Origin: Bacteroidota bacterium
GTDB lineage: Bacteria > Bacteroidota > Ignavibacteria > Kryptoniales > JAKASW01
Assembly (NCBI GenBank): GCA_021789975.1
Contig: JAJYIT010000019.1
Location: forward strand, 1 to 64,000
Direction: 5' to 3'
DNA: 64,000 nucleotides
The notes below the pieces were generated by a model. It worked only from the letters and a program-made list of their open reading frames with translations, was not told where the DNA came from and made no database searches. The position numbers and the translations under genes are program-made. Below are positions 1,079 to 28,839 of the stretch, in pieces (the stretch's first letter is position 1; each line of letters begins with the position of its first letter).

Positions 1079-2455
1079 TCAATGCTGTATCAGAATAACA
1101 TATCCGTAACTCTTCATCGAAAGAGTAAGCGTGTTATTCCTGATTACCAGCGGTCGTCCGTTTAATTCGTTCATCATCCTCGCATGATTAAATCCAGAAA
1201 GAAGCACTTTGACGTTTTTCACCGGTTGCTTAGAGAAATTGAAAACACATATTGCCTTCTTTCCGTCAAGTTGTCTTTCGTAAGCAAGCACGTTTCTGTT
1301 CCTCTCAGCATAGAAAGGCGTGTAATTCCCTCTGACCAGCTCAGGGTTGTTCCGCCTGATCGAATATACTTTCTCGTAGAGCTTTCTGAATCCATTCTTC
1401 ACATTCCAGTCTATCGAGACCTGCTCAAACAGGCTGAGTCGTTTCGGGTTGCCGACTTCATCACCGTTGTAAATAAGCGGGACACCGGGAAAAGTGGCGA
1501 TCAACGCAACTGTCATACTATCTCCGCCAGGTCCGTATCTTTCAATCGACGGCGCATCATATGCATTCTCATCATGGTTAGTGTTGAATCGCAAGCGCAG
1601 TGCACCGATCGGATAAACCGTCTTTTCCCACGCGAGTACGCTATCAATTGAAGTTGCTGGGGATTTCCCTTTAACAATCTGTCCCAGCAAATTATAAATA
1701 TCCCATGAATATGTGAGGTCGAAAGCCTTGAGCTGCAAATCCGGTTTTGCACCTTCGGCGAGCATCATCACCGGTTTAATACTGTCTAGCGCAGCCCGCG
1801 CCTCGTCCCAGAAACTCAGCGGAACAAGTTCCGCAGCGTCGCAGCGGAAGCCGTCGACGCCTATGTCTTTCACCCAGTACTTCAGCATGTTGATCATGTA
1901 TTGACGCAAATGTGGATTGTCATAATTAAGCTGAGCAACGTCCGTCCAATCCGGATTTGGCGGAATGATTTTGCCGGTGCTATCATGTTTGTACCAACTC
2001 GGGTGTTCTTTGATGAGAGGGTTGTCCCACGCCGTGTGATTGAGCACGGCATCCATGATGATATGCATGCCGACGGCATGGACGGCTTTCACTAGTTTCT
2101 TGAAATCCGCAAGTGTACCATATTCCGGGTTTATCGCATAATAGTCCTTGATTGAGTACGGGCTCCCCAATGGTCCCTTCCTATGCAGCTCGCCTATTGG
2201 GTGAACAGGCATGACCCACAACACTGTCACGCCAAGTTTTCTCAGCTCCGGGATCTTTCTTACTATCGAGAGGAGACTCTCATTTTTCGAAAACGATCGC
2301 GGATATACTTCATATATCACCGCGTCCTTCACCCATGCCGGGCTTGGTCTTGCGTGTTCTTTTGAAACGTTCGGAAGACTCTGTGCTAAGACACTGTGAC
2401 GCGACTGACCTGCCAGACAGGCACATAAGATCGCGGCGATAATCCACTTTTTCAT
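1079..2455 (-). CDS. Exported GH13 alpha-amylase without a T9SS tail
   Basis: This 458-residue protein is a glycoside hydrolase family 13 enzyme that should cleave alpha-1,4 bonds in maltodextrins. Conserved region I reads DAVLNHT (about residues 135-141). The nucleophile is probably D206 in DGFRCDAA, the acid/base E234 in MLAEG, and the third acid D295 in NTNHDE. I chose the ATG at 2455, not one 69 bases upstream, because a signal peptide (MKKWIIAAILCACLAGQ) begins there with GGAGA about 9 bases before it. The signal resembles a type I signal more than a lipobox. It has neither the starch-binding N-terminus nor the sorting domain of the two larger amylases nearby, so it probably works in the periplasm on imported oligosaccharides. 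It is the last gene of the block, 65 bases after the sugar transporter. Confidence 0.88.
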   Translation of the reverse strand: MKKWIIAAILCACLAGQSRHSVLAQSLPNVSKEHARPSPAWVKDAVIYEVYPRSFSKNESLLSIVRKIPELRKLGVTVLWVMPVHPIGELHRKGPLGSPYSIKDYYAINPEYGTLADFKKLVKAVHAVGMHIIMDAVLNHTAWDNPLIKEHPSWYKHDSTGKIIPPNPDWTDVAQLNYDNPHLRQYMINMLKYWVKDIGVDGFRCDAAELVPLSFWDEARAALDSIKPVMMLAEGAKPDLQLKAFDLTYSWDIYNLLGQIVKGKSPATSIDSVLAWEKTVYPIGALRLRFNTNHDENAYDAPSIERYGPGGDSMTVALIATFPGVPLIYNGDEVGNPKRLSLFEQVSIDWNVKNGFRKLYEKVYSIRRNNPELVRGNYTPFYAERNRNVLAYERQLDGKKAICVFNFSKQPVKNVKVLLSGFNHARMMNELNGRPLVIRNNTLTLSMKSYGYVILIQH

Positions 2456-2520
2456 ATAAACATTCTCCGATAATTTTCTGCGCTGACGATTGAGTAAAGT
2501 AAACAGCCAATTTTGAACAC

Positions 2521-4038
2521 TCAAGCTTCGAGTTCGTCCACATCATCCACTCTCAACACCAGGAGTGCGGCAACAACCAGCGATGCTCCGCCGAGTAATA
2601 ATGCGTATATCGCCTGGTCTCCGAAAAAGTGTTTGAGGAAGAAACCGAGAATCGCGGCCGCCGTTATTTGAGGGATGACGATAAAGAAATTGAATATGCC
2701 CATATAGACCCCCATCTTCTCCGCCGGAAGCGAACCGGTAAGTATCGCATATGGCATTGCGAGTATCGAAGCCCAGGCAAGTCCGATCCCCAGCTCCGAG
2801 ACGATAAGAAGTTTCGGATCTTTAATGACGTAGAAAGAAAGAAGTCCCGCGGCACCGCACATCAGGCTGATCGCGTGTACACTCTTCCGGCTCGTTTTCC
2901 TGGCGATCCAGACCAGGAGGAACGCCATTATTGCCGCAAACCCGTTGTATACCGCCATCAATACGCCGACCCAATTCGCGCCTTCATTATATAGTGCAGA
3001 TGCAGTATCAGTCGCACCGTAGACGAATTTGGTGACTGCCGGCGTAGTGTAGATCCACATGGCGAACAAAGCAAACCAGGAGAAAAACTGCACATAGGCA
3101 AGCTGTACCATCGTCTTCGGCATGCCGAACAAATCGTTCATAACCACCACCAACCCGCCGGAAGTTCTATTCCGATTTGAAAATATGCCCGCCACAATTT
3201 GCAGCACGCCGAATGCGATTATTCCCCCAAAGAAAACTGAAAGACCGTAGTCGAGACCAATCAAGAGCGCAAACACAAGGAACAGAACTATGCCTGCCAA
3301 AATCCACATTAATCCGCTCCTGAGAAACTTCGATCCGGGAATGCCTTTTTGCACTCCGCCATTTGCGGAACCGTCCGCATTATTAACCTTCGCCTCCGAG
3401 TACTTAATGAGTTCTTCCGGTGGATATTCTTTCGAGCTGAAAACCGTCCACAGAACGGCCAGAAGAAAAACGACGCCGCCTATGTAGAAAGAGAGTTTCA
3501 CGGAATCGGGAATCGCTCCGTCAGGCGCCGTATTAGGCACGCCGAACCATTTAGTCAAGACATACGGGAGTGAGGAAGCCACGACGGCACCCGTTCCGAT
3601 GAAGAAGCTCTGCATCGAAAAACCAATGGTCCTCTGCTCCGACGGAAGCATGTCACCGACGAAAGCCCTGAATGGCTCCATGGATATATTGATCGAAGTG
3701 TCCATAATCCAAAGCATCCCGGCTGCAAACCAAAGGATCGGTGAATTCGGTATAATGAGAAGAGCTGCGGACGCCAGAATCGCACCGGTCAGAAAATACG
3801 GACGTCGCCTTCCAAGCCTTCCCCACGTCTTGTCGCTCATATGACCGATTATGGGCTGGACAATCAGCCCTGTAACTGGTGCCGCTATCCACAGGACGGG
3901 TATCGACTCTATACGCGCTCCGAGTGTCTCGAAGATTCTGCTAACATTTGCATTCTGAAGCGCAAAACCGAACTGAATTCCTAAGAAGCCGAAACTCATG
4001 TTCCAAATTTGCCAGAAGCTCAGACGTGGTTTCTTCAT
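2521..4038 (-). CDS. SLC45-like MFS sugar transporter
   Basis: A 505-residue integral membrane protein of the major facilitator superfamily, with about 12 hydrophobic segments. The N-terminus (SFWQIWNMSFGFLGIQFG) and the loop between segments 2 and 3, DKTWGRLGRRRPYFLTGA, match the GRRRP signature of the glycoside/SLC45-type proton-sugar symporters often found beside maltose and maltodextrin genes in FCB bacteria. The likely task is uptake of maltose or short maltodextrins across the inner membrane. It lies between two GH13 amylase genes: the upstream stop is 36 bases before its ATG and the downstream amylase starts 65 bases after its end. A copy of the AAGTG-N5-CACTT motif sits 27 bases upstream of the ATG. 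Exact substrate is inferred from context only. Confidence 0.85.
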   Translation of the reverse strand: MKKPRLSFWQIWNMSFGFLGIQFGFALQNANVSRIFETLGARIESIPVLWIAAPVTGLIVQPIIGHMSDKTWGRLGRRRPYFLTGAILASAALLIIPNSPILWFAAGMLWIMDTSINISMEPFRAFVGDMLPSEQRTIGFSMQSFFIGTGAVVASSLPYVLTKWFGVPNTAPDGAIPDSVKLSFYIGGVVFLLAVLWTVFSSKEYPPEELIKYSEAKVNNADGSANGGVQKGIPGSKFLRSGLMWILAGIVLFLVFALLIGLDYGLSVFFGGIIAFGVLQIVAGIFSNRNRTSGGLVVVMNDLFGMPKTMVQLAYVQFFSWFALFAMWIYTTPAVTKFVYGATDTASALYNEGANWVGVLMAVYNGFAAIMAFLLVWIARKTSRKSVHAISLMCGAAGLLSFYVIKDPKLLIVSELGIGLAWASILAMPYAILTGSLPAEKMGVYMGIFNFFIVIPQITAAAILGFFLKHFFGDQAIYALLLGGASLVVAALLVLRVDDVDELEA

Positions 4039-4064: not shown

Positions 4065-4080
4065 AAAGTGCGAATCACTT
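4065..4080. promoter_or_regulatory. AAGTG-N5-CACTT motif before the MFS gene
   Basis: AAGTGCGAATCACTT lies here, overlapping the stop codon of the upstream amylase and ending about 27 bases before the transporter ATG. Its arms form an inverted repeat. Close relatives sit before three other genes (9037-9103, 18459-18473, 42770-42834). Its function is unknown; a regulator site is one possibility. Confidence 0.35.
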
Positions 4081-7000
4081 CAACAACAGCATCTTGTTCA
4101 CCGCAACGAAGGAGCCGGAAGATTGAATTCCTCTCGCGGAAAGTCTATAAAAATAGACCCCCGATGCCAGATCGTTTCCGTCGAACACCACTTCGTGATC
4201 TCCTGCATACTCAGTTGATGATACAAGAGTCTTGACTTCTCTTCCCAACACATCATACACCTTAAGCGTGACAAAGCTATTCGCCGGTAACCGATAGTCA
4301 ATGAACGTGGTTGGATTGAAGGGGTTCGGATAATTCTGCGAAAGAGCATAATGAATCGGCAGCGGTGCGCTGCTGCCGGTCCGTATGGCGGTTATAACCG
4401 GATAGGTCATCTTGATGAGCGAATCACTAAGCACGTAAACTGCTGAACCGTAAGGCGGAAGTGTCGCTGAGAAGCCCGCCGCGCCACCTGAGAAAACTAT
4501 CGAAGTCGTCGTATCGTCGTACACATCGTTCAAATAGTATGTTTTGCCGTTCACGACACCACCGGGAAAGACGACGTTTGCTGAGCTACCGTTGGAAGTG
4601 AGAGCTATACTTACCGAGGCTGTCGTGTCGCTGAAATTCTCGAGTGCAATTCCATTTTGGTCCGGGTATGGCCTCGTGTACGCATACACCCACGGATTGC
4701 CGACTGTAAGACGATTGAACTGCTGAGTCGAGAACGCAGGGAACGTCCCGCGTATCCAGGCAAGCTTCTCGTAATGTGGTGTCAGCAGGGCTTTGCCCGG
4801 GCTGTTCCAGTCTATGACCCCGCGTTCCCGCTCCAACTGATTGGAGATGCCGGGTCCGAAGCCGACTTCTTGCCCGGAATACATCTCCGGAATTCCAGGA
4901 ACAGTGAAGACCACGGTCGCCATGGGCATCGTCTTCTGGTACGAGCCGTATTGATATGCGATTCGCTCCTGATCATGGTTTTCCATAAAGCGCATGAAGA
5001 GGGCGTTGGGTCCGGGGACGTATCCCATCGTATCGATGCCAAAGTTAGTTACGTACTTGTTTAAATTGGAAATGCTCGAAGATGTTCCGAAGTTGAAGTT
5101 ATAAATAGCATTCCAGTAGAGATTCCAATCATAGGCAGCATCGAGTCCGCCGCCGTCGTCTGCATAGTCCACTTGCGTTCCGAGTCCTGTTCCTGCGGTT
5201 TCGCCCAGCAGGAAGATATCGGGATTGACATGCTTCAATAATGTTCTAGTCGGAGTCCCCATCTCGTTTTCACCGCCGTTCCCGTTGTTCGCTCTGTCGT
5301 GTGGTCCCCAATATGAGTCGAATCTGTAGCCGTCGACACCCATGTTCTGGACCCACCACGCATAAACACTATCCATGTAAGCTCTGGCATCCGGATCAGC
5401 CCAGTTGTAATTCAAAAGCTGATCGCTGTAACCGTTGTAATATATGAATTTGTCGCTCGTTTCCTCCTCGGGCAAATTCGGTTCGTAGTTCAGATTGGTG
5501 ATCAGATGATGCTGATAGAAATCCCAGTAGAAAGAATATTTCCCGTACTCTCTCGCGTTGACGGCCATCGGGTTGTTGAAACTCGTATGGTTCGGAGTAA
5601 CGTCGAGTATCACTTTCATTCCAAGCGCGTGGGCCGCATCGACAAAGTCCTTGAAGTCGGCATTTGTACCATATTCCGGCGCGACTTTATAAAAGTTTAT
5701 GATATTGTAGCCGGTGTTCGTGCCGTTGTCGATCGGCTGGTTGTTCTGCATGACCGGCATAACCCAGATTATATTGAATCCCATATCGTGGATGTACTGG
5801 AGCTTCGGTATGGCAGCGTCGATCGTTCCCTGTGAAGTAAACGACTTGAAGAAGAGCTCATATATACGACCCATCTTTGCCCATTCCGGATTCGATGCAT
5901 AAGTCGAAAATGAGACCGAGTCATTGCTATAGATCGTGAAATAAGAGCGAGTCGTGTCGCTGTACCCGCTCGAATCGGTGGCAACCAAAGAGAAAATGTA
6001 TTCACCTGGAATTGTCGGTTGTGAAATGGTTATCGACGGTAAATTTGAGCCTTGAACACCAGCAATCGCCGAAGGATTAGCCGAATCAACTCCCCAATCA
6101 AACTTCAATGAAGGTGTCTGAGTTGAATCGGGATCGGTACTCTGTTTAGCAGAAAGAATTATGTTATTGCCACTCTCAGAAAAACTGATAACAGCATTTG
6201 GAGAATGATTTACAAAGTATGTCATCGTGAACGGCGTCGAAGTGATCGTTGAATCAGCGGCGGTCTTCGCAATTGCGACGAAAGTATTCAGTCCCGGCTG
6301 GTATGAAGCATTCAATGAGAAACTCCCGCCGGTCGCCTGAACCGCGGTGGTATCTGCTCCGTTTTGAATTACCTCGACGTTGTGTATCGACGTGTCTTCA
6401 AGGCTGCCGTAAATAGTGATGCCTGTTTTAAGCGTGACATATCCGCCCTGGTTTAGAATTTGAATCGAGCCTGCCTGCACCGTAACGGAAGTAGAATCTG
6501 AGACGAGGTCGCCGTGAAGATTTTTCACTGACAACTTCAGGTTCCTGATACCGTTCTGCAAGATGATCGGTGAAAGGAAACTGAGCTGCTTTGTCGACGG
6601 ATTGTAAGCGGTACCTGGTATTTTGAATGATTCCGCATCCACATCGAGAACAAAACTCGATGTGTCGACTCCGTATTTAGCGGAAGGAAAAACATAGGCG
6701 GAGATGAGCGGCTGCTGTGAATAAACGATTCCGGACGTAACGTTCGGAAGGAAATGGCAGATTGTTGGACTCTTAATATAAAGGATGGAGTTGCTGTTAT
6801 TCTGCGAATTTTGATATGGATTAAGCGGATCCGGTAGCCATGTGCTTCCGTTTTCATTGAACTTGTACTGGTAGGCACCGGGGACTTCACCCGCCGCACC
6901 ACTGTTTGCCTGAGGCGGCCCACCGACTTGAAGCCAGTAGGTTCTGGACCAGATTCCGGTCGAGGGATCTATCGTCATCACAGAAGCCGCGCCAGGCCCG

Positions 7001-7176
7001 GGAGAGATTGTTCCACCGGAGTTTGGTCCCCAGTTGTTAAACTCACCGGGAACATAGACGATCGATGGATTGTCGGTTGGCTTGTAGTAGAAAGTCACAT
7101 CGACGCTGTCCTGAGCGAACAGAGATCCGGTGAAGATGAGAACAACTGAGGTCAAAGACAGAAATATATTCTTCAA
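4075..7176 (-). CDS. T9SS-secreted multidomain GH13 alpha-amylase
   Basis: A 1033-residue cell-surface or secreted amylase. A signal peptide (residues 1-21) is followed by a CBM48/E-set-like glycogen-binding module with the VPGEFNNWG motif (about 25-135), Ig-like modules (about 145-415), a GH13 catalytic domain (about 430-900) and a type IX sorting domain (about 945-1033) opening with YALSQNYPNPFNPTT. The catalytic set is intact: region I DVTPNHT, nucleophile D620 in GYRFD, acid/base E659 in LLGET and D735 in ENHD. It should attack starch or glycogen outside the cell, with export by T9SS and processing of the C-terminal domain. It lies 24 bases downstream of the SGNH-TPR gene, consistent with one transcript. 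Whether it is an endo-amylase or a pullulanase-like enzyme cannot be told from the motifs. Confidence 0.9.
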   Translation of the reverse strand: MKNIFLSLTSVVLIFTGSLFAQDSVDVTFYYKPTDNPSIVYVPGEFNNWGPNSGGTISPGPGAASVMTIDPSTGIWSRTYWLQVGGPPQANSGAAGEVPGAYQYKFNENGSTWLPDPLNPYQNSQNNSNSILYIKSPTICHFLPNVTSGIVYSQQPLISAYVFPSAKYGVDTSSFVLDVDAESFKIPGTAYNPSTKQLSFLSPIILQNGIRNLKLSVKNLHGDLVSDSTSVTVQAGSIQILNQGGYVTLKTGITIYGSLEDTSIHNVEVIQNGADTTAVQATGGSFSLNASYQPGLNTFVAIAKTAADSTITSTPFTMTYFVNHSPNAVISFSESGNNIILSAKQSTDPDSTQTPSLKFDWGVDSANPSAIAGVQGSNLPSITISQPTIPGEYIFSLVATDSSGYSDTTRSYFTIYSNDSVSFSTYASNPEWAKMGRIYELFFKSFTSQGTIDAAIPKLQYIHDMGFNIIWVMPVMQNNQPIDNGTNTGYNIINFYKVAPEYGTNADFKDFVDAAHALGMKVILDVTPNHTSFNNPMAVNAREYGKYSFYWDFYQHHLITNLNYEPNLPEEETSDKFIYYNGYSDQLLNYNWADPDARAYMDSVYAWWVQNMGVDGYRFDSYWGPHDRANNGNGGENEMGTPTRTLLKHVNPDIFLLGETAGTGLGTQVDYADDGGGLDAAYDWNLYWNAIYNFNFGTSSSISNLNKYVTNFGIDTMGYVPGPNALFMRFMENHDQERIAYQYGSYQKTMPMATVVFTVPGIPEMYSGQEVGFGPGISNQLERERGVIDWNSPGKALLTPHYEKLAWIRGTFPAFSTQQFNRLTVGNPWVYAYTRPYPDQNGIALENFSDTTASVSIALTSNGSSANVVFPGGVVNGKTYYLNDVYDDTTTSIVFSGGAAGFSATLPPYGSAVYVLSDSLIKMTYPVITAIRTGSSAPLPIHYALSQNYPNPFNPTTFIDYRLPANSFVTLKVYDVLGREVKTLVSSTEYAGDHEVVFDGNDLASGVYFYRLSARGIQSSGSFVAVNKMLLLK

Positions 7177-9110: not shown

Positions 9111-12100
9111 TTACTTCAAAAGCAGCATCTTCTTCACGCTGACAAAGCTTCCGGCATGCAGACGGTAGAAATAAACTCCGGTTGCAACGTGCACGCCGTT
9201 GCCGTTCGCTCCATCCCAGACCACTGAGTAGTTGCCGGGTTGCAGCATACCGCTCACAAGTGTAGCGACGTGCTGGCCGAGCACATCATACACTTCCAGG
9301 GAAACGCGTTCCGGTTTCGCAATCTCGTATTCAATCGTCGTTGTAGGGTTGAACGGATTCGGGTAGTTTTGCTCAAGTCCGAACGTCAACGGGACATCTG
9401 GTTTTGTTTCTATTGCGGTGAGCGGACTGTTGCCTAAAACGAGTATCTGTGATTGGTACGGAGCGAGATTTACAGTGAGACTGGAAACTGAAGATGGCGT
9501 AACTGGCTGACTACTAATGTTCAGGACGTCGTTTGCGTACCACGGCTTCGTCGGGTCGAGGTTCAAGCTATCGGCCGGAACTGTGACCACAGCTTTGAAT
9601 TGGCTGCCGTAGAAGTTGTTTATCACGATCACTTTATCGTTACCTTCCATTCTCAGATAGGCATAAACTGAATCTCCAGCAGTCGTCTTGAGTCTCATGA
9701 AGCTTCCCTGTTGAAGTGCCGGATTTGCATCCCTGATATGGATGAGACTTGTGTAATATGGCTGCAGATTATCCGGATCGCTCCAATTGATGATGCTTCG
9801 CTGAGTAGTTTCGCCGACTTCTTGTCCTGCATAGACCAACGGCAATCCCGGCAAGGTGTAGATGAAGGCTGCTGCCATCATTGTCTGCTGACTGCCGAAA
9901 ACATCGATGAACCTCGGCTCATCTTGGTTCTCGAGAAATCTGAGAGGCCGCACAAACGAAGGATACGCTGGCTTTCTGTACCATTCTATCAAGCTGTCCA
10001 AAGAAGTGATGGAGGCGTCATGGTTCATCGTTGACTGCAGGAGACTGTACAGCGACCAATCGTAACCGCTGTCGAATTTCTGCTCAAAGTATTGCAGGCC
10101 GGTCGCATCACATTCACCGAGGAGGAGAATATCCGGTTTCACTTGTTTGAGGTCCGATCTCATGCTTTGTAGAAATGCCGGGCCCGAAACACGGTCGTCG
10201 TTTATTCCCCAGGCAACGTCGAACCTGTAGCCATCGATATTGAAGTTCTCCACCCAGTATTTGAGCATCCTGAGAAGATAATTTCTTACCCAGGCAGATT
10301 CATAATTGATGTTTGCCAAATTCCACCAGGAGCCGAAGTAATTGTACGTTCCGTTCGCGTTCCACATATAGAAGTCATGATAAGGAGAATAGGTTCCGTA
10401 TTCGTACGCATCCTGCATGAATGGATGAATTGCAGAAGTGTGGTTGATAACCATGTCGAGAATTACTTTGATGCCGTATTGGTGAGCAGTCGTGATCACC
10501 TTCTTCAAATCGGCGGGCGTTCCATAATCAGGATTGACGCCATAGTAATTTGTCACCGTATAGCCGGGTTGGTTGGCGGACAACTGCTCGGAGTCATAGA
10601 TCGGCATAAGCCAGATGCAATTGACACCCAGTGCCTTGAGCTGCGGCATCCTTCCGGCCACGGCGTTGAGCTTCCCGGTGAGGCTGAGAGTCCTGACGTA
10701 GATTTCGTAAACCACGGCAGTGTCGACCCACTTCGGATGGAAGATTGACAAGTCCACTGCCTGCGGCAGGCCGGAATCGACGACGACGACTGCTCTCGCC
10801 CATGATGTGTCGAGACTCGTGGCTGCCGTGACATTGAAATAGTATTCGCCATCAACATTTGGCGAAGTGTAAGAAGCGGTGGCAGTGGTGGCGCCTGTCA
10901 AACTAACCGGGGCGGGATTAGAAGGATCTGGCGTCCAGGTGAATGTCGGCGCCAAGCCATCCGGATTAGTTGAGCTACTGGCATCCATAGTCACCGACGA
11001 TCCACTGGTGATGTATTTTATTATAATATCCGTCGAGTGATCGGCATGATAATCAAAGAGAACTCCTTTGCTGGTTGTCGATACTCCCGATTTTGTTACC
11101 GAAACACTTATCGTGTTGATTCCGTCGGTCAACGGCAGTAGAGCCGAAAGCATACCGGAGGAAACCGATACCGTGGTATCATGGACGACGCCGCTGTTCG
11201 AGACGTGTACCACTGCACTTGTTATCGTTGAGTCGCTCACCGTCGCGTAAACTCTCACGGTATCCTCATACCAGTCGCCTCCACCGGTAAGTATTCTGAT
11301 CAGAGGTCTGTTGGCAAGAGTGGAGCTTATTTGCGACGGATCAACGGCGACGACACCACGCCGAACCGTGCCTATGACCGCCAATCGCGGCGCACCGATG
11401 TTGAAACCTCCTATATAGTTCGACAGAAGTCTGTGCTGGTTGCTCACATTGCCCATGAACGCAACGTTATAAACATAAGGATTGTCAGCCTGGGGTGATA
11501 CCGGTATAGCGCCCGAACTGTTTCCAAAGAATGTATAACCGCAGAAGTACCACGGCTCGACATACGAGCCTAAAACGTTTTCGAGATCCGACAGCGCAAG
11601 TGCGAATCTGAATTGGGAAGAAGTCTGCGCATCGCTGTTTACCGATATCGCCGGGCCTCGCTGCAAAGGACTCCGTGAAACAAACAGCACGTTATCCATC
11701 GTGTCGAGCTGCGTAGAATTCGGCGGAGCGATTATCATGTAGACGCCTACGTTGTTCCACTCCGGGACTTTCATATTTACAGCCGGGAGAGCGTCGACAA
11801 AGTCTGCTTGCTTCAGAGTATTTGTAATTTCCAGTGCAAAACGCGTCTGGTTGTCGACGGCTCCCATGTCGATCGTGAACTCAAGTGAGTCACCGGCGGC
11901 GTTTGGCGCAATGTGGATATCATATAGATCACCGGAATGAGCAGCGACTCCGGCCGGATAGGCGTATCCTCCGGGCCCGTCGTCATTGTTTTGGCCGTCT
12001 ACGTAGTAATAGCCTGTCTTAGATTGGTACACTCCGAATGTCAGGTATGAGTTCTTCGCTCTGTTGCCGCCGACGTCTGCCCCAATCACTTCGACGACAT

Positions 12101-13385
12101 GCCTTCCGATTGCAGGGCTCGTCGCGACGGCCGAGATATCATAACCATTCTCAGTGGAGTCAACTGTGTGCTGTACCAGCATCCCATCGACGTAAACCTG
12201 TATAGAGTTCGTGTCGATAGCAGTGCCGCTGTCATTTTCGGTTATGACCGCTCCTATAGGCACTGTACTCACTGGTGACCAAAGGATTGTTCCCTGTCCC
12301 GGACTTGAGAATTCTATTTTCGGAATTGGATTTATTGTCTTGATCACGTACGGCGTGTAGTCGGATCCGATATTCGGATTGTCCGGATCAGGCACGTAGC
12401 CAATAACCGCACTCGCGCCTTTCACGATGAACTGATAGTTGGAAACCACCTGGTTCACAGGGAGCATCTCGTTCAACTTGAAGACGCCGTTTGAATCCGG
12501 ACCTACCATAGGATCAGCACCGTAGAAATTGAAAGGACCCTGAACCGACACTCCGGTAATCCCGTCACCGAGGTATTTGAGATTCGGGCTATGCGGATCA
12601 AATACAAATGTGTACGGGGCATTTACGATAGCGTTGGAGACATTGAAGATGGATGAATCGATTCCGACAGAACCTTTACTATTCATTGCACTCAGCACGA
12701 CTGAGTACCTTCCTGCCAGCAAAGGCGAAGGGATTTGATAAGAAAAGATTCCGGTGGTGGAATCGAAATATGTTGGACTGTTAGAAACCGGAGTGCCGTT
12801 AATTGTAAGCCCGATACTCGACACGACAAGCTTGCTCACAAGACCGGCCGTGATCCTCGCAGAGATTACGGGAGTTTTGTTGTTTATTGTTGAGCCGCTG
12901 AGAGGAGCAAGATCGTATATAGCAGGATCAGTTACATATAGGATCGAATTGTTGTTATTTGCCGCATTCTGGAGAGGATCAAGCGGATCGGGGAACCAAC
13001 CCGCGATGCTCGTGTCGCCGCCAGAAATGCTGTATGTGACAAACTTGTATTCATAAACACCAGGGCCATCGACACCTGAGCCGCCCGGCTTCGTGTAATG
13101 CCCGGTGGTGTCAGGCGTCAGAGGGACGGTGATTTCCCATGTGTCGTTCCCGACATTCTGCATCTGATACGGATGTCTATTGTTGTAAAAGCCCCAGTTG
13201 TTGAATGTACCATTTATGCCGACGCCGGTCTCTCCCGCCTGAAGCGTGTGAGTGAATACGAATGTGATTGGAACGCCTTTCGTGGAGTCAATCTGCGCAC
13301 TTGCTTGAAGCACCATCAACGCAACAAGTGAAATGATCATTCCACTTCCACGAAGGACCTTATTAAGCAATGTCTCATACCGCAT
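9111..13385 (-). CDS. Giant T9SS-secreted GH13 enzyme with glucodextranase-like module
   Basis: A 1424-residue exported protein. After the signal peptide (to about residue 31) come two CBM48/E-set-like starch-binding modules (GTFNNWG near 59-65; QGPFNFYG near 282-289). A region at about 455-690 resembles the C-terminal module of glucodextranase and amylopullulanases (NNDDGPGGYAYPAG). More Ig-like modules follow to about 870, then a GH13 domain (about 885-1320) and a type IX sorting domain opening with GLEQNYPNPFNPTT. Region I is DMVINHT, the nucleophile D1056 in GYRFD, and the acid/base E1091 in LLGEC. Region IV reads ENQDE: the usual His before D1155 is Gln1154. It stands 16 bases downstream of the propeller gene in a run of co-directional genes. 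The target is probably a branched or long alpha-glucan. Confidence 0.88.
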   Translation of the reverse strand: MRYETLLNKVLRGSGMIISLVALMVLQASAQIDSTKGVPITFVFTHTLQAGETGVGINGTFNNWGFYNNRHPYQMQNVGNDTWEITVPLTPDTTGHYTKPGGSGVDGPGVYEYKFVTYSISGGDTSIAGWFPDPLDPLQNAANNNNSILYVTDPAIYDLAPLSGSTINNKTPVISARITAGLVSKLVVSSIGLTINGTPVSNSPTYFDSTTGIFSYQIPSPLLAGRYSVVLSAMNSKGSVGIDSSIFNVSNAIVNAPYTFVFDPHSPNLKYLGDGITGVSVQGPFNFYGADPMVGPDSNGVFKLNEMLPVNQVVSNYQFIVKGASAVIGYVPDPDNPNIGSDYTPYVIKTINPIPKIEFSSPGQGTILWSPVSTVPIGAVITENDSGTAIDTNSIQVYVDGMLVQHTVDSTENGYDISAVATSPAIGRHVVEVIGADVGGNRAKNSYLTFGVYQSKTGYYYVDGQNNDDGPGGYAYPAGVAAHSGDLYDIHIAPNAAGDSLEFTIDMGAVDNQTRFALEITNTLKQADFVDALPAVNMKVPEWNNVGVYMIIAPPNSTQLDTMDNVLFVSRSPLQRGPAISVNSDAQTSSQFRFALALSDLENVLGSYVEPWYFCGYTFFGNSSGAIPVSPQADNPYVYNVAFMGNVSNQHRLLSNYIGGFNIGAPRLAVIGTVRRGVVAVDPSQISSTLANRPLIRILTGGGDWYEDTVRVYATVSDSTITSAVVHVSNSGVVHDTTVSVSSGMLSALLPLTDGINTISVSVTKSGVSTTSKGVLFDYHADHSTDIIIKYITSGSSVTMDASSSTNPDGLAPTFTWTPDPSNPAPVSLTGATTATASYTSPNVDGEYYFNVTAATSLDTSWARAVVVVDSGLPQAVDLSIFHPKWVDTAVVYEIYVRTLSLTGKLNAVAGRMPQLKALGVNCIWLMPIYDSEQLSANQPGYTVTNYYGVNPDYGTPADLKKVITTAHQYGIKVILDMVINHTSAIHPFMQDAYEYGTYSPYHDFYMWNANGTYNYFGSWWNLANINYESAWVRNYLLRMLKYWVENFNIDGYRFDVAWGINDDRVSGPAFLQSMRSDLKQVKPDILLLGECDATGLQYFEQKFDSGYDWSLYSLLQSTMNHDASITSLDSLIEWYRKPAYPSFVRPLRFLENQDEPRFIDVFGSQQTMMAAAFIYTLPGLPLVYAGQEVGETTQRSIINWSDPDNLQPYYTSLIHIRDANPALQQGSFMRLKTTAGDSVYAYLRMEGNDKVIVINNFYGSQFKAVVTVPADSLNLDPTKPWYANDVLNISSQPVTPSSVSSLTVNLAPYQSQILVLGNSPLTAIETKPDVPLTFGLEQNYPNPFNPTTTIEYEIAKPERVSLEVYDVLGQHVATLVSGMLQPGNYSVVWDGANGNGVHVATGVYFYRLHAGSFVSVKKMLLLK

Positions 13386-16334: not shown

Positions 16335-18458
16335 TTACCTCACCAACAACATTTTTCGAACCGAAGTATACTTGCCTGCGATGAGCCGGTAGAAGTACAT
16401 ACCGCTTGGGAGCCCGCTTGCATCGAAAGATAAGGTATAATTTCCCGGTTGCTCTACCCTGTCGACCAGACTTTTGACCTCCCTACCAAGAACGTCGTAC
16501 ACTTTCAGGGTAACATAGCTGGTGGTTGACAGTTGATAGCCGATGGTTGTACTCGGATTGAACGGATTCGGATAATTCTGATCCAGCGCGAACGACCGCG
16601 GCAGTCCGTCTTCTTCGCGATGGACCGAAGTGAACGTCGAATCGTACTGTACCACCACCATGTCCCAGTAAACCAAGCCAGGAAGTGTCACCGATGTATT
16701 TCCTCCGCTCTGAGTGAATGGAAGACTCACCGGCGCTCCATCATAGAAATCCGGAGAAGCGCACCATACAGCAACAACTGTGCTACTTGTATTTAAATTG
16801 ATGGCTAATGGCTCCAGAGTATCAGGCGCTGTCTGTCTACCACCCGTGTCGCGCCACGCAAGTGATTTGACTCCACGCAGGTTGATCAGGTTGATAATCT
16901 GTTTATGATCTTTTGCACTGACCATGCTCCAGATTCCGCCAAGCTGCGGCGTCGAGCTCACCGGAGTTGGCAGCGAACCGGATTGCGCAGACATATTCAG
17001 GATAGAATGCACCTCCCCGTCCCGGAGTAGATTCTCATAAGCAACCATGAAATCATAATCGCGGACCAGATCTCGCTGCAAAGTGTCGGTCATTTGCAGT
17101 CCGGCGGCGGGAAAGTACGAATTATAAAGCATGTGCTCGCCCAATTCGAGATGATCGCCGCCTGCAGCAAAGATTACGGCGTCGGTCAGAAGAACTCCAG
17201 GAGTGTTGAAGAAGCCCGTCCCGTTTGAAACATCGTCCATGTAGGCTGCAAGGACGGTGGCAAGACTTCCGTCGCTGTAAGATGTATTCTGATTAATGAT
17301 ATTGACCAGATCGGAGTACGTCGTGTCAGGAGGCCACACTTCGGTATAAAGGAAATCTACGGGTGACTGCGCTATCTGCTGCTGGCCATATTGCCCGACG
17401 GCGTTCATAACCAGGTCGACATTGAGCTGAGTCTTAGCGTTCGAAAGGAACGACGAAAAGGAATTCGTAAGGTTAACCGGCTGCCCGTCGTAATTCCAGA
17501 GGGAGCCGAGATAGCCAAGCTGATCCACGTGCCACCCGTCGAAAGAAATTGCGAGAAAGACTTTTCGCTCCTGAGCACAAATATAGTTTTGCCAATCGCT
17601 GTTGCTCGGATCCATGATGTACAAGTTGCTCGCCCACTCGGGAGGAGGGAGAGGAAAATATTCACGGGACTGGTGATTCGGATCCGAATAAAGACTCCAG
17701 GTTATGTCGACTCCATCCTGGTAAGCGTCGGCATACGCACCGTAGAGCAAGTTGTAATTCATCGCCTTCATACCATGCTCGTGCGCGGCCCGGATGTACC
17801 CTTCAACCGTCGATAAATAGGTCGTCCGATTCCCGATATCTTTCCACGTCGAGTCCGGATTTTGGACTGTTCCAGCGAGAGGCTCATTATGTTTATATTG
17901 CCAATCGTAAAACTGGAGACCGTTTATGTGATACCGGTTGAGGACCGAAATTGTGCTGTCCATTTTGGATTGACTCATGTACGGATAGGCAGATAAGAAA
18001 CCATAACGTGGGAATTTGTTCCAGGTCGAAGAAACGTCGACCCCGATCGTGGTATGATCCAAAACCGTGTCCGAGCTTTCAAGGAACAGCTCGACAAGAA
18101 CGCCGAAGTGATCGACGTCAGGCGCTTGCCAGGACCATGATATAGAATCCGTACCTGTCAGGCTGATGGTGTCCACACTCATTGCACTGTCAAGATGCTG
18201 GTAGACAATCCGAAGGACCTTCCCAGGCACTACCTGTTTGAAAGTGACAATGAACTGGACCATCGAGAGAGGATTGTACAACGCACGGTCGGTTGAAACA
18301 TTTGCAAACCAATCTCCCTGGTTTATCCCGACAGTCAAATTGGATTGAGCTCCCGCCTGTCCGCATGTTGCAAGCAGGATGAGAACTGGCAGAGACAAAG
18401 ACAAAAACCTGAAACGAGGTACTTCAACTATCATGAAACGGCCCGAATGCTTTGTCAC
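16335..18458 (-). CDS. T9SS-secreted GH66 dextranase-like enzyme
   Basis: A 707-residue protein resembling glycoside hydrolase family 66 (dextranases and cycloisomaltooligosaccharide glucanotransferases), which act on alpha-1,6-glucan. After a signal peptide (about 15-38) and a beta-domain, the catalytic barrel starts near PRYGFLSAYPY. The family nucleophile matches D312 in FDGWHVDQLG and the acid/base E373 in LYTEVWPPD. The C-terminus is a type IX sorting domain (LDQNYPNPFNPST). The protein lacks the inserted carbohydrate-binding module of the transferases, so hydrolysis is more likely. The start is either the GTG at 18458 or the ATG at 18434; neither has a clear Shine-Dalgarno sequence. Its stop lies 185 bases before the propeller gene. 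It widens the block from alpha-1,4 to alpha-1,6 glucans. Confidence 0.85.
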   Translation of the reverse strand: MTKHSGRFMIVEVPRFRFLSLSLPVLILLATCGQAGAQSNLTVGINQGDWFANVSTDRALYNPLSMVQFIVTFKQVVPGKVLRIVYQHLDSAMSVDTISLTGTDSISWSWQAPDVDHFGVLVELFLESSDTVLDHTTIGVDVSSTWNKFPRYGFLSAYPYMSQSKMDSTISVLNRYHINGLQFYDWQYKHNEPLAGTVQNPDSTWKDIGNRTTYLSTVEGYIRAAHEHGMKAMNYNLLYGAYADAYQDGVDITWSLYSDPNHQSREYFPLPPPEWASNLYIMDPSNSDWQNYICAQERKVFLAISFDGWHVDQLGYLGSLWNYDGQPVNLTNSFSSFLSNAKTQLNVDLVMNAVGQYGQQQIAQSPVDFLYTEVWPPDTTYSDLVNIINQNTSYSDGSLATVLAAYMDDVSNGTGFFNTPGVLLTDAVIFAAGGDHLELGEHMLYNSYFPAAGLQMTDTLQRDLVRDYDFMVAYENLLRDGEVHSILNMSAQSGSLPTPVSSTPQLGGIWSMVSAKDHKQIINLINLRGVKSLAWRDTGGRQTAPDTLEPLAINLNTSSTVVAVWCASPDFYDGAPVSLPFTQSGGNTSVTLPGLVYWDMVVVQYDSTFTSVHREEDGLPRSFALDQNYPNPFNPSTTIGYQLSTTSYVTLKVYDVLGREVKSLVDRVEQPGNYTLSFDASGLPSGMYFYRLIAGKYTSVRKMLLVR

Positions 18459-24893: not shown

Positions 24894-27755
24894 TTAGAAA
24901 GAGATCTTCGTCCCGATTTCGATTCTTCTCGGAGCCGAATAGAAACTCGGGTTAGTGTAATAATCCTGGATTGATGCGATCCTGTGAGGGGAGTTGGCAT
25001 TTATTAGTGACTGTTCATACAACGAGACGCTTGGAAGCCCGGTGTCGGTGTATACGTTCAGCGGATTCAGAGTATCGAAGATATTATTGATCCGCGCGAA
25101 GATCTGTAAGAAAGAAGTACCACCGAGGCTGAAGTTCTTGTACACCTGTGCATCCAGATTGTAAGTGACCGGTTTCACGGCCGAGTTGTATGCAAGCTCT
25201 CCGACATTAGACACCTGGGCGGGTGTGTAAGGCGTACCACTGCCGAAATTGAAGACCAGGCCGAATCCCCAGTTGCTCGGATTAACGTAGTCGAAAGTCG
25301 CATTGACGGTGTGCTCCTGATCCCAATTAAGCGGGATCAACTGGGTTTCCGGAAGCACTCCACTTGCTACAAGATTTGCTGCAGAGTTTGGGTCGGAGGC
25401 ATCACCCTTGGCGATCTGGAATGTGTAATTAAGGGTAGCAGACCACGAATTCGACAGGCGCTTTTCAAGAGTAACAACAATTCCTCTGACAAATCCGAAG
25501 TCTGTGTTAACATACCTGCTGTATTCACCGGCATTGCCTGTTACAAAGATGATCTCATTCAATGTGCCGGACAGGTTCTTTATATCATTAAAATATCCGG
25601 TAACATCGATTGCTAATTCATTTGTGAGTTGCTGTTCGACCCCCAGCTCACCTTTTGTGGTTTCTTCGGGATTCATGTTCGGGTTTCCAATTATGCCCAG
25701 GAATGTGCTTCCTGCAAGTTGAAGCTTGTACCCCGGACTCTGATAGAGCTGGTCAAACGTAGGCATCTGAAAAAACAGTCCGTAGGAGAAATGTATGATC
25801 CCACGATCGGTTATGGGGAACGCGACTCCTACTCTTGGGCTGAACTGGTATTTATTGGTCGCATTCCTGTACCAGAAAGCCATTCTTCTCTGAAGGGCGA
25901 TCTGATGCTGGTTGGCAAGAGTAACTCCGTTGCCGAGCGGTGCAATGACGCTATCCTGGTACTGCGGCTCGAGAGGTGCATACACATCGGGGTCGGCAGG
26001 GTTCGCCAGCACCCGCCCGTCGGGATGAAACCAGTCGAACCTGACACCGAGGTTAATGATAAGAGATTTGTATTCCATCTTGTCCTGGAGATACGCGGAG
26101 AACTGCTGAGGTTGATGGAAATACATATTGTTATATGGACCTTCCAGGCTCGGCATAACAAAAGGCTCCATGAGGTATGGAGTTGATCCATCTGTCGCCG
26201 GGTCACGTCCGATGTCCTGGGGTCCAATTGCATGAGATAGATCTACGTTGTGAAGAAACAGTCTGTACTGGGTAAACTGCACTCCGGCCTTGATCATGTG
26301 GTGATCAGTAATCTGGCTTGTGATGTCGAACTTGGCGAGGTAAGTATCCGTATTTCGAACATTATTATTCATGTTTATGCCGCCGGAGTAGAAGGTGCCT
26401 TCAGGTTGCTGAAGCACTATCGGCAGGACATATTGCTTATAATTCATAGGGTCCTGTCTCGTAAACAGGTCTGATAAACTGAACGGGTTCGGGTCGTAAT
26501 ACTCACGGTAATCGTTGAAATCGTAGGAGAGATCCAAGGTGAAATACGTTCTACTGCTAAGAGCATCCGTCAAAGAAAGTGTGTTCAAGTATCCCTTCGT
26601 GAAATTGCTGAGTTCACCATTCGGATCGTACTTAAAGTTCCAATCAAAGTCTTTGCCCCGAGAATTGTCAAGTATGTAGTTGTAGGCGATCTGGAATTCC
26701 GGCGAGACCTTGTATGTCAGCTTACCCTGGAGGTAAGCTTCGAGAGAAGGATTCAGCGGCACAATATTGCCATTGCCGGTTTGCTGGATGGTCCACAGTG
26801 CGGGACTGGGGTTTGTCGTGTTTGTAACGTCGCCCACATTGAACTTGTTGAACCCGAAAAAGTCACCTCCGGAGTAATAGTATCGGGCATCGGTGTAGAA
26901 GAAGAGTTTGTTTTTAACGATCGGGCCATCAAGTGAACCTTCGAGCCAATTATCATTGAGAGGGTTTACCGTCTGAAGCCCGTTGAAGATATTGGCATTT
27001 GAAGTGGCATAGCCGCCGGAGTAAGCCGTAACGCTTCCATGAAAATGGTTGCCGCCTGTTTTCGTAGCGATGTTTACGACACCGCTCATTGCCTGACCGT
27101 ATTCGGCATTGAAGGCACCCGTGACGAGCTGCATCTGCTGGATAGCGTTTGTATTAACGTCGATAATGTTTGAACCATCATACGGATTGGTCACCGGGAC
27201 GCCGTCGATCATGTAAGTCACTTCGCCGCCGCGCCCGCCCCTGGCATGCAAGGTTCCGTTCGGACCAGTGTATATTCCCGCTTGCAAGTTGAGGACATCT
27301 TTGAAATTTGTCACCGGTAACGACTCTATCTGCCGACTGTTAACTATCGCGGTCGTAGCCGTCATGTCCTTTTGTACCAACGGTCGTTTTGCCGTGACGA
27401 TTACCGCCTTCGTCGTTACGGCCGACTGATTGAGGTTGAAATCGACATCAGTTGTCAGATCGATGGAGACTTCGTTGTTCTTTATTTCTTCGGACTGGTA
27501 CCCCACGGCACTCGCTCTCAACGAGTAAGTCCCCGGATGAAGATCAAGTATGACATATCTTCCGTTAATGTCCGTTGCTGCCCCCAGGGATGTCCCTTCG
27601 ATGACAACGGTGGCACCGATCAGTGGCTGTTTAGTCGCTGCATCAATTACCTTTCCGGCGATCTTCCCGGTATCGCCGGCGTAAGCTATTCCCGTTGGGA
27701 AGGACAACCAGAAACTCAGAAGGAGAAAAACTGAAAGAGTAGCGATTTTCCGCAT
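24894..27755 (-). CDS. TonB-dependent receptor of the alpha-glucan block
   Basis: A 953-residue outer-membrane receptor. The signal peptide is followed by a carboxypeptidase-regulatory-like domain (GKVIDAATKQPLIGATVVIEG, about 30-115), a plug domain (ESLPVTNFKDVLNLQAGI; MIDGVPVTNPYDG; GVVNIATKTGG, about 130-245) and a 22-strand-type barrel ending in Phe, as usual. Proteins like this import ligands using energy from the TonB-ExbBD complex. It begins 4 bases after the LacI-type regulator and is followed by the 1235-residue exported protein. Its likely substrate is malto- or isomaltooligosaccharide, inferred from the amylase and GH66 genes downstream. It belongs to the Oar-like group more than to classical SusC, and no SusD gene follows. 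Confidence 0.88.
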   Translation of the reverse strand: MRKIATLSVFLLLSFWLSFPTGIAYAGDTGKIAGKVIDAATKQPLIGATVVIEGTSLGAATDINGRYVILDLHPGTYSLRASAVGYQSEEIKNNEVSIDLTTDVDFNLNQSAVTTKAVIVTAKRPLVQKDMTATTAIVNSRQIESLPVTNFKDVLNLQAGIYTGPNGTLHARGGRGGEVTYMIDGVPVTNPYDGSNIIDVNTNAIQQMQLVTGAFNAEYGQAMSGVVNIATKTGGNHFHGSVTAYSGGYATSNANIFNGLQTVNPLNDNWLEGSLDGPIVKNKLFFYTDARYYYSGGDFFGFNKFNVGDVTNTTNPSPALWTIQQTGNGNIVPLNPSLEAYLQGKLTYKVSPEFQIAYNYILDNSRGKDFDWNFKYDPNGELSNFTKGYLNTLSLTDALSSRTYFTLDLSYDFNDYREYYDPNPFSLSDLFTRQDPMNYKQYVLPIVLQQPEGTFYSGGINMNNNVRNTDTYLAKFDITSQITDHHMIKAGVQFTQYRLFLHNVDLSHAIGPQDIGRDPATDGSTPYLMEPFVMPSLEGPYNNMYFHQPQQFSAYLQDKMEYKSLIINLGVRFDWFHPDGRVLANPADPDVYAPLEPQYQDSVIAPLGNGVTLANQHQIALQRRMAFWYRNATNKYQFSPRVGVAFPITDRGIIHFSYGLFFQMPTFDQLYQSPGYKLQLAGSTFLGIIGNPNMNPEETTKGELGVEQQLTNELAIDVTGYFNDIKNLSGTLNEIIFVTGNAGEYSRYVNTDFGFVRGIVVTLEKRLSNSWSATLNYTFQIAKGDASDPNSAANLVASGVLPETQLIPLNWDQEHTVNATFDYVNPSNWGFGLVFNFGSGTPYTPAQVSNVGELAYNSAVKPVTYNLDAQVYKNFSLGGTSFLQIFARINNIFDTLNPLNVYTDTGLPSVSLYEQSLINANSPHRIASIQDYYTNPSFYSAPRRIEIGTKISF

Positions 27756-27759
27756 GCAT

Positions 27760-28839
27760 CTACCTCAATTTTGATTTTGCCGTCACGAGCCCGTCGGAAT
27801 TCCTCAAGGCGCCACAGCTTTCTCTCACAATAAGCGTGGGAGAAAATGTTGTGTGAAGTATTTCCAAATCCGGATTCGACATCCTCGCCACCATGCGGTC
27901 CACGGCAAGTATTCCCATCTGGTACATCGGTTGTCGCATAGTAGTGAGTTTTAGATGACGGGCCAGCTCTATATCGTCAAAGCCCACTATAGAAATATCG
28001 TCCGGTACTCTCATTTCATTTTCTGACAACGCCGCAATTGCTCCCATTGCCTGAATGTCTGATGAGACGAAGAACGCCTTAGGCATCTCGGGACCCATCT
28101 TGATGAAGTCCGACATAGCTTCGTAGCCGGCTTCACGGTTAAACCCATCTTGCTTCATGGTACACCCCGTCTTCACGAGATCTTCGGAAAAAGAGATGCC
28201 GTGGATCTCAAGCGCATGTTTGTACCCCTGCAGTCGCTCGATCGCCGGGGCGCTAACGAGCTGTGCATTGACCATCCCGACCGGACGGCGACCCAGCTCT
28301 ATAAGATGAGTCGTCGCTGCATATGCACCGTCCACGTTTGCCACTGAGATGGAATCGAAGTGTGGCGATACCGTGTCGACAAGGACTACTGGCACATTTG
28401 TTTCCTGAAGGCGCACGATGACTTTCTCAGGAATCTTCATTGAGAAGAGAAGTATCCCGTCCACCCTCCCTCTCTGAAGAGCCCGAGAGACGTAACCTTC
28501 TACTTGATCAATATTGTTGACCCCGTACAGCACAAGGTCGTATCCAAGTTGGCTTATTCTGTCCTGTACGCCCTGGAGAATTTCAATGAAGAAGTAGTTG
28601 GTGAAAAAGGGGATGATTGCGGAAAGTGTTTCGGACTGTCGTTTGGCAAGGCGCTGGGCGTAGGTGTGAGGCTGGTAGTTGAGACGCTCCGCAACGTCTT
28701 TCACCCGTTTGCGGGTTTCAGGCGCAACACTCGGATGATTATTTAGAACCCTCGAAACGGTACCGACACCGACGTTTGCCTCTTTGGCGACGTCGTAGAT
28801 GGTAAGTTTGTGCGTCGCGATCTCCTTCTTTGGAAGCAC
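27760..28839 (-). CDS. LacI-family regulator of the alpha-glucan block
   Basis: A 359-residue repressor-type protein. The helix-turn-helix is at residues 12-35 (LTIYDVAKEANVGVGTVSRVLNNH), the hinge helix follows around 58-70, and a periplasmic-binding-protein-like sensor domain fills the rest (ends with IVGFDDIELARHLKLTTMRQP and LIVRESCG). The first codon is GTG at 28837-28839. It is the first gene of a 12-gene co-directional run of alpha-glucan genes, and its stop is 4 bases before the TonB receptor. Two TGGAAG-N2-CTTCCA palindromes, one over the start codon and one 58 bases upstream, are probable autoregulatory operators. Maltooligosaccharide is the natural guess for the inducer, without direct evidence. 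Confidence 0.9.
   Translation of the reverse strand: MLPKKEIATHKLTIYDVAKEANVGVGTVSRVLNNHPSVAPETRKRVKDVAERLNYQPHTYAQRLAKRQSETLSAIIPFFTNYFFIEILQGVQDRISQLGYDLVLYGVNNIDQVEGYVSRALQRGRVDGILLFSMKIPEKVIVRLQETNVPVVLVDTVSPHFDSISVANVDGAYAATTHLIELGRRPVGMVNAQLVSAPAIERLQGYKHALEIHGISFSEDLVKTGCTMKQDGFNREAGYEAMSDFIKMGPEMPKAFFVSSDIQAMGAIAALSENEMRVPDDISIVGFDDIELARHLKLTTMRQPMYQMGILAVDRMVARMSNPDLEILHTTFSPTLIVRESCGALRNSDGLVTAKSKLR

Follow-up and report, generated by a model that had tools for sequence, protein, structure and literature searches.

A secreted multi-domain GH13 protein and its locus

The window (the whole 64,000-nucleotide stretch of DNA that was analyzed) encodes a 1424-residue secreted GH13 protein, referred to here as the giant protein, together with the neighboring genes and active-site features collected in Table 1. 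In the giant protein, N-terminal modules without a clear family assignment are followed by a PKD-like domain (aa 791-867), the GH13 barrel (aa 903-1201; PF00128, 1.8e-49, 169.6 bits against a cut-off of 22), a SusG_C-like domain and a C-terminal T9SS-type tail. The FlgD_ig match lies above its Pfam cut-off (7.7e-09), those to PKD, Por_Secre_tail and SusG_C fall below the curated cut-offs, and that to Glucodextran_B is sub-threshold; the PKD-like match scores 25.6 bits with the whole protein and 28.3 bits with its N-terminal part, the cut-off being 27. No match to CBM48 was obtained in this protein with Pfam. The catalytic module, on which all comparisons are based, was modeled by AlphaFold with a mean pLDDT of 94.9 and a pTM of 0.93, and its nearest solved folds are those of neopullulanase, TVAII and maltogenic amylase (Z about 42.6).

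Table 1. Genes and active-site features of the window
Feature	Coordinates	Strand	Support or remark
GH13, 481 aa, sister group, region IV T-N-H-D-E (His)	1079..2524	-	
MFS/GPH-type sugar transporter	2521..4038	-	
Tandem partner, secreted GH13, 1033 aa, region IV E-N-H-D-Q, His734 (CAT, 4975-4977)	4075..7176	-	
GH13 protein, 1424 aa, secreted (giant protein)	9111..13385	-	ORF list, Pfam
Catalytic module, aa 880-1330	9396..10748	-	AlphaFold
GH13 region IV L-E-N-Q-D-E, aa 1151-1156	9918..9935	-	
Gln1154 codon CAA; usual GH13 residue His	9924..9926	-	CAA also in orthologue L010
Region III L-L-G-E-C, acid/base Glu1091	10110..10124	-	
Region II D-G-Y-R-F-D-V-A-W-G, nucleophile Asp1056	10206..10235	-	
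Region I D-M-V-I-N-H, His982 kept	10440..10457	-	
Glu894 codon, strand beta1 (V-V-Y-E-I)	10704..10706	-	Co-evolves with residue 1154
GH66 (dextranase / cycloisomaltooligosaccharide glucanotransferase family), T9SS tail	16335..18458	-	PF13199 1.4e-182, PF18962 4.8e-11
ORF, 1276 aa	21170-25000	-	Overlaps adjoining TonB receptor gene by about 100 bases
TonB-dependent receptor, CarboxypepD_reg-like domain (SusC-like)	24894..27755	-	
LacI-family regulator	27760..28839	-	

The module shows the (beta/alpha)8 barrel and the Asp/Glu/Asp triad of GH13 with an Arg two positions before the nucleophile. The nucleophile, the acid/base and the third Asp (Asp1155, the stabilizer), whose integrity had been pointed out in the preliminary description, are all present, as are Arg1054 and Tyr942. 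Region IV closes with N-Q-D instead of the N-H-D that, according to the available part of PMC11239784, is typical of most GH13 subfamilies. This departure, previously reported as a CAA-encoded Gln in the L-E-N-Q-D-E of a 1424-residue GH13 protein within 9895-9940, is borne out by the ORF translation, in which F-L-E-N-Q-D-E corresponds to aa 1150-1156 and E-N-Q-D-E, at 9918-9932, occurs only once in the whole protein. The replaced His is described in the accessible text of PMC6274110 as 'almost completely conserved' in GH13 and as one of its seven most conserved residues. The earlier statement that it contacts the sugar in subsite -1 agrees with what the accessible sections of PMC4919382 report for its GH70 equivalent, which makes a direct hydrogen bond to the -1 glucosyl unit.

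In addition to the genes of Table 1, the same strand encodes a GDSL-TPR protein, a T9SS-tailed propeller protein, a PorV-like protein and a T9SS-tailed protein with a weak Pfam match to CBM48; the 1276-aa ORF has no Pfam match. GH66 enzymes act on dextran. Because the locus encodes a T9SS-tailed GH66, dextran or another alpha-1,6-containing glucan, together with starch, is a plausible substrate, and the presence of GH66, a TonB receptor and several secreted GH13 enzymes gives the locus the appearance of one for dextran/alpha-glucan utilization. Full-length GH66 was found in 15 of the 41 genomes searched, and just three genomes (G000, G005 and G006) have it on one contig with the giant gene. 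Dextran does not explain the His-to-Gln swap, because G006 has GH66 on the contig of its giant gene and yet retains His; GH66 or dextran as its simple cause is thereby ruled out.

The region IV residue across relatives

The closest orthologue of the giant protein (L010, 93% identical, from a separate genome) also has CAA at residue 1154, and L039, from the Bacteroidetes MAG YP1.bin85, has a catalytic-domain sequence identical to that of L010. The next three orthologues (L011, L012 and L013, with 77, 75 and 74% identity) carry His, encoded by CAC or CAT, so that Gln is not a constant of the subfamily. For a broader survey, catalytic domains were gathered from 13 genus genomes, 20 order genomes (these 13 included) and 294 class genomes, and 60 further matched regions (59 lacking a locus, plus one) were fetched, at least 28 lower-scoring matches being left out. 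With L001 removed as a duplicate of the query and L004/L006 and L007 left out, the resulting alignment comprised 127 domains, which have His (85), Gln (34) or Asn (8) at the site. Every Gln and Asn row belongs to a single clade that comprises 79 rows (37 with His, 34 with Gln and 8 with Asn) and consists of secreted, often multi-domain enzymes, including those of the 1000-1430-aa type; all 48 rows of the sister clade have His, with Gln or Asn in 0/48.

A careful tree of these 79 rows and three outgroup rows, from which the region IV and Glu894 columns were excluded, yielded eight gains or losses of Gln (5-95% range 8-8 over 200 bootstrap trees), seven of them forced by starred branches, and a single origin of Asn. 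Parsimony on the 127-row tree gave seven changes from His to Gln, one from His to Asn and one from Gln to His. The Gln clade of the giant protein contains two rows only. Throughout the 79 rows, the nucleophile, acid/base, stabilizer Asp, Arg and Tyr are invariant, and the region I His is kept in 78. The one remaining row, L032 (G011), has Gln in place of the region I His (T-P-N-Q-T) and retains His in region IV. Another observation concerns a Gln subclade (L129, L130, L133-L137 and L178) in which the Asn preceding the site has changed as well (M-E-S-Q-D-E or M-E-T-Q-D-E) and Trp often stands for Tyr in region VII.

Outside this collection, the pattern [FLIMV]-E-N-H-D-E-x-[RS] was detected in 174 of 395 phylum genomes and its Gln version in 9 of 395, in a census limited to E-N-x-D-E-x-[RS] frames that misses forms such as M-E-S-Q-D-E. 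Four of the nine Gln matches are GH13 genes (three from the genus and one from the class), and five are not GH13; among the His-pattern loci checked, 29 of 30 had the region II motif upstream in frame. A profile search of 80 genomes of other classes returned, among its best 30 loci, 28 with His, one with Gln (L178) and one with Lys (L179). The region IV of L179 (G388) reads L-E-N-K-D-E, and Leu occupies the position of the beta1 Glu. Both non-His rows may come from Gln lineages that had already been sampled, and they therefore do not count as fully independent.

The alignments show a site that has been exchanged repeatedly (for Gln, Asn or Lys) within one Bacteroidota clade, with the other catalytic residues fixed. 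As read from the trees, Gln is a substitution that recurs and not a trait fixed in a subfamily. The expectation that orthologues sharing Gln would mark a genuine subfamily trait was realized in part: the closest orthologue shares it, the next three do not, and other parts of the clade gained Gln on several occasions. An open-access literature search, covering the text available, found no report of natural Gln at GH13 region IV and no mutant data for the region IV His. His mutants of CGTase and barley amylase belong to the general background and carry no weight as evidence here.

The tandem partner encoded at the same locus has His, though the other eight rows of its subclade have Gln, and parsimony assigns the Gln-to-His reversal to it. 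Secreted-clade genes lie side by side at nine loci (G000, G001, G004, G006, G008, G011, G241, G256 and G259), with one His and one Gln member in six, two His members in three and two Gln members in none. In the window it is the giant protein that has Gln and the partner that has His; G001, G004, G006, G008 and G241 show the opposite arrangement. Such reciprocal states are not significant and are not claimed here, because chance alone gives a probability of 0.29 for the lack of a Gln/Gln pair (hand calculation, 6 Gln among 18 genes); genomes G002 and G003 also contain Gln/Gln pairs elsewhere, and the pattern is retained as a lead only.

A coupled glutamate on strand beta1

Strand beta1, corresponding to residues 13-16 of the AlphaFold model, contains Glu894, and the residue at this position differs strongly with that at the region IV site. 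Glu is present in 77 of the 85 His rows versus 8 of the 34 Gln rows, the other Gln rows having Leu (9), Phe (8), Cys (4), Gln (3) or Ser (2). The eight Asn rows have Glu (5), Gly (1), Gln (1) or Cys (1), and the His rows without Glu are seven rows of one sister subclade with Ser and L106 with Thr. Among the best 30 loci from other classes, the position is occupied by Glu (25) or Gln (3) in the 28 with His, by Phe in the one with Gln and by Leu in the one with Lys.

A sign test on independent pairs yielded at most seven pairs for covarying columns, a number insufficient for significance over 1688 tests. It was replaced by branch-length-weighted losses and a correlated-evolution likelihood test. 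Parsimony places five losses of Glu894 on Gln branches (total length 1.8) versus two on His branches (31.2), with a p value of 8.5e-6 that is the lowest among 63 columns conserved in His rows. In Pagel's test of correlated evolution between Glu894 and the site, the likelihood ratio was 30.1 (p 4.6e-6) when the full tree was used and 27.4 (p 1.7e-5) when both columns were excluded from tree building. With the latter tree, Glu894 ranked first among 49 columns (48 of them controls), followed by L919 (19.1) and I964 (18.9). The fitted rate of Glu loss was about 0.001-0.07 with His and 1.5-1.6 without it. Column L919 was the runner-up in both the branch-loss and the correlated-evolution tests. When columns were ranked by raw pair difference, S1261 came first and Glu894 second.

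These reconstructions show that loss of the beta1 Glu is far more frequent where the region IV His has already been replaced. A His at position 1154 and Glu894 would accordingly form a contacting pair in which loss of His frees the Glu, although the two positions could instead be coupled through a third residue. His does not universally need Glu894, given the His rows with Ser or Thr, and eight Gln rows keep the Glu. The giant protein is one that retains Glu894 alongside Gln1154. Its own His-to-Gln swap therefore looks recent, because Glu894 has been kept, and the two-row Gln clade fits this timing.

Alternative explanations, proposed mechanism and known systems

Taken from sequence comparisons, the giant protein is probably a catalytically competent, T9SS-secreted GH13 alpha-glucan hydrolase in which the region IV His has recently been replaced by Gln. 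An origin of Gln1154 in a sequencing or assembly error could be suspected from the facts that one codon only is concerned and that the draft assembly consists of 85 contigs. Its probability is vanishingly small, because the 93% orthologue, which comes from a separate assembly and has diverged from the giant protein at roughly half the synonymous sites of the catalytic domain (pS 0.49), carries the same CAA, and Gln is present in 32 further rows; the read-level error considered in the preliminary description is thereby excluded. A dead or binding-only GH13 domain, the latter also raised at that stage, is unlikely because the triad, Arg and Tyr are invariant and dN/dS lies at about 0.02-0.06 (0.058 for the giant protein and L010; four further Gln/Gln pairs lie at 0.018-0.044). 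The near-complete conservation of the His across GH13, as stated in the available text of PMC6274110, is what could speak for lost catalysis and a purely binding or regulatory role; set against the dN/dS values, the fixed triad, Arg and Tyr and the almost universal region I His of the clade, such a role is very improbable.

Two further explanations concern what the exchange does in an active enzyme. The site may be under near-neutral tolerance, in which, with binding modules holding the polymer for the multi-domain enzyme, the His has ceased to be rate-limiting, and His, Gln and Asn drift with function unchanged. The occurrence of exchange in both directions (seven His to Gln, one His to Asn and one Gln to His by parsimony) and the lack of a consistent link to GH66 are compatible with such drift; however, the remaining active-site positions do not drift, entire subclades have kept Gln along long branches, and the accompanying change at Glu894 has the character of an ordered structural consequence, so that this account has only a modest chance of being right. 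Alternatively, Gln might suit the -1/+1 region to transglycosylation or to glucans with alpha-1,6 linkages (dextran, isomaltooligosaccharides). The GH66 enzyme in the locus of the window points in this direction, as does the Gln that alpha-glucan enzymes of GH70 carry for the region I His of subsite -1 (available part of PMC4919382), whereas His is found in G006, whose orthologue is linked to GH66, and in G250, G265 and G288 the giant Gln genes and GH66 are on separate contigs; a change of specificity is thus possible but doubtful.

For the preferred reading of a competent hydrolase with a recent replacement, a mechanism can be proposed. A single third-position transversion (CAY to CAA) would recently have given Gln1154. 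In the ancestral state, the beta1 Glu would contact the region IV His and stabilize its charge, and it would be retained as long as it partners a charged His and be free to change afterwards. Gln1154 would keep a hydrogen-bond donor to the -1 glucose and lose the charge, thereby abolishing the ionizable Glu-His pair, with the giant protein representing an early stage in which Gln has been gained and Glu894 remains. The expected outcome is an active enzyme with an altered rate, pH profile or balance between hydrolysis and transfer. From the composition of the locus, its substrate may be dextran or a comparable alpha-glucan, soluble or branched, the handling of which would be shared with the GH66 enzyme, the His-bearing tandem GH13 and the TonB receptor.

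More tentatively, the region IV His and the beta1 Glu may constitute a two-state switch in secreted Bacteroidota GH13 enzymes, alternating between a charged Glu-His pair and a neutral Gln or Asn combined with a hydrophobic residue; lineages would switch repeatedly, with the His changing first, and tandem enzymes may split the two states between them. If so, the states could set the pH range or the preference for hydrolysis versus transfer. More generally, repeated replacement under purifying selection suggests that the region IV His is dispensable in nature, and the clade identifies the beta1 Glu as a residue whose constraint depends on this His. Natural enzymes that differ at the site, some of them about 75% identical, are ready for measuring the share of the His in rate, pH dependence and transfer.

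Among known systems, the clade is closest to GH13_49, the group of the Haloarcula japonica alpha-amylase, which the available part of PMC11239784 defines by a region II closing in [WY]-[GA], a Glu in region IV and an Asp before the acid/base, with PKD modules upstream and, in bacterial members, copies of CBM48 and a glucodextranase-like module. The giant protein closes region II with W-G (Trp in 76 of the 79 clade rows), has Glu1152 before the Asn of region IV (Glu in 75 of 79), and shares the G-Q end of region VII; a putative PKD-like domain lies upstream of its barrel. Its best NCBIfam profile is that of haloarchaeal MalA (258.7 bits, below the cut-off of 875), which also matches all 59 rows of structure alignment A1 (58 rows plus the query). 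In contrast to GH13_49 as described there, the Asp before the acid/base occurs in 0/79 clade rows (Gly 47, Ala 32; Gly in the giant protein), and the giant protein has N-Q-D for N-H-D. Judged by these motifs, the clade is GH13_49-like and not a member.

The GH70 glucansucrases offer a parallel in that, according to the accessible sections of PMC4919382, Gln takes the place of one of the two -1 His residues and hydrogen-bonds to the -1 glucose in active enzymes. In GH70, however, it is the region I His that is replaced (Gln1509 in GTF180) and the region IV His (H1135) that is kept, the reverse of the giant protein, which also retains the order I-II-III-IV rather than a region I located C-terminal of II-IV. 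The alpha-amylase BmaN1 (GH13_45, with an aberrant triad) likewise combines a natural change of a near-invariant active-site residue with activity, as far as the text available from PMC5347038 describes it, but there the catalytic acids are replaced, and in the giant protein the supporting His alone. The neopullulanase and maltogenic amylase structures that come nearest in fold (1vfm, 1sma and 1j0h) align over about 418 residues, with an identity of 25-26% over the aligned part.
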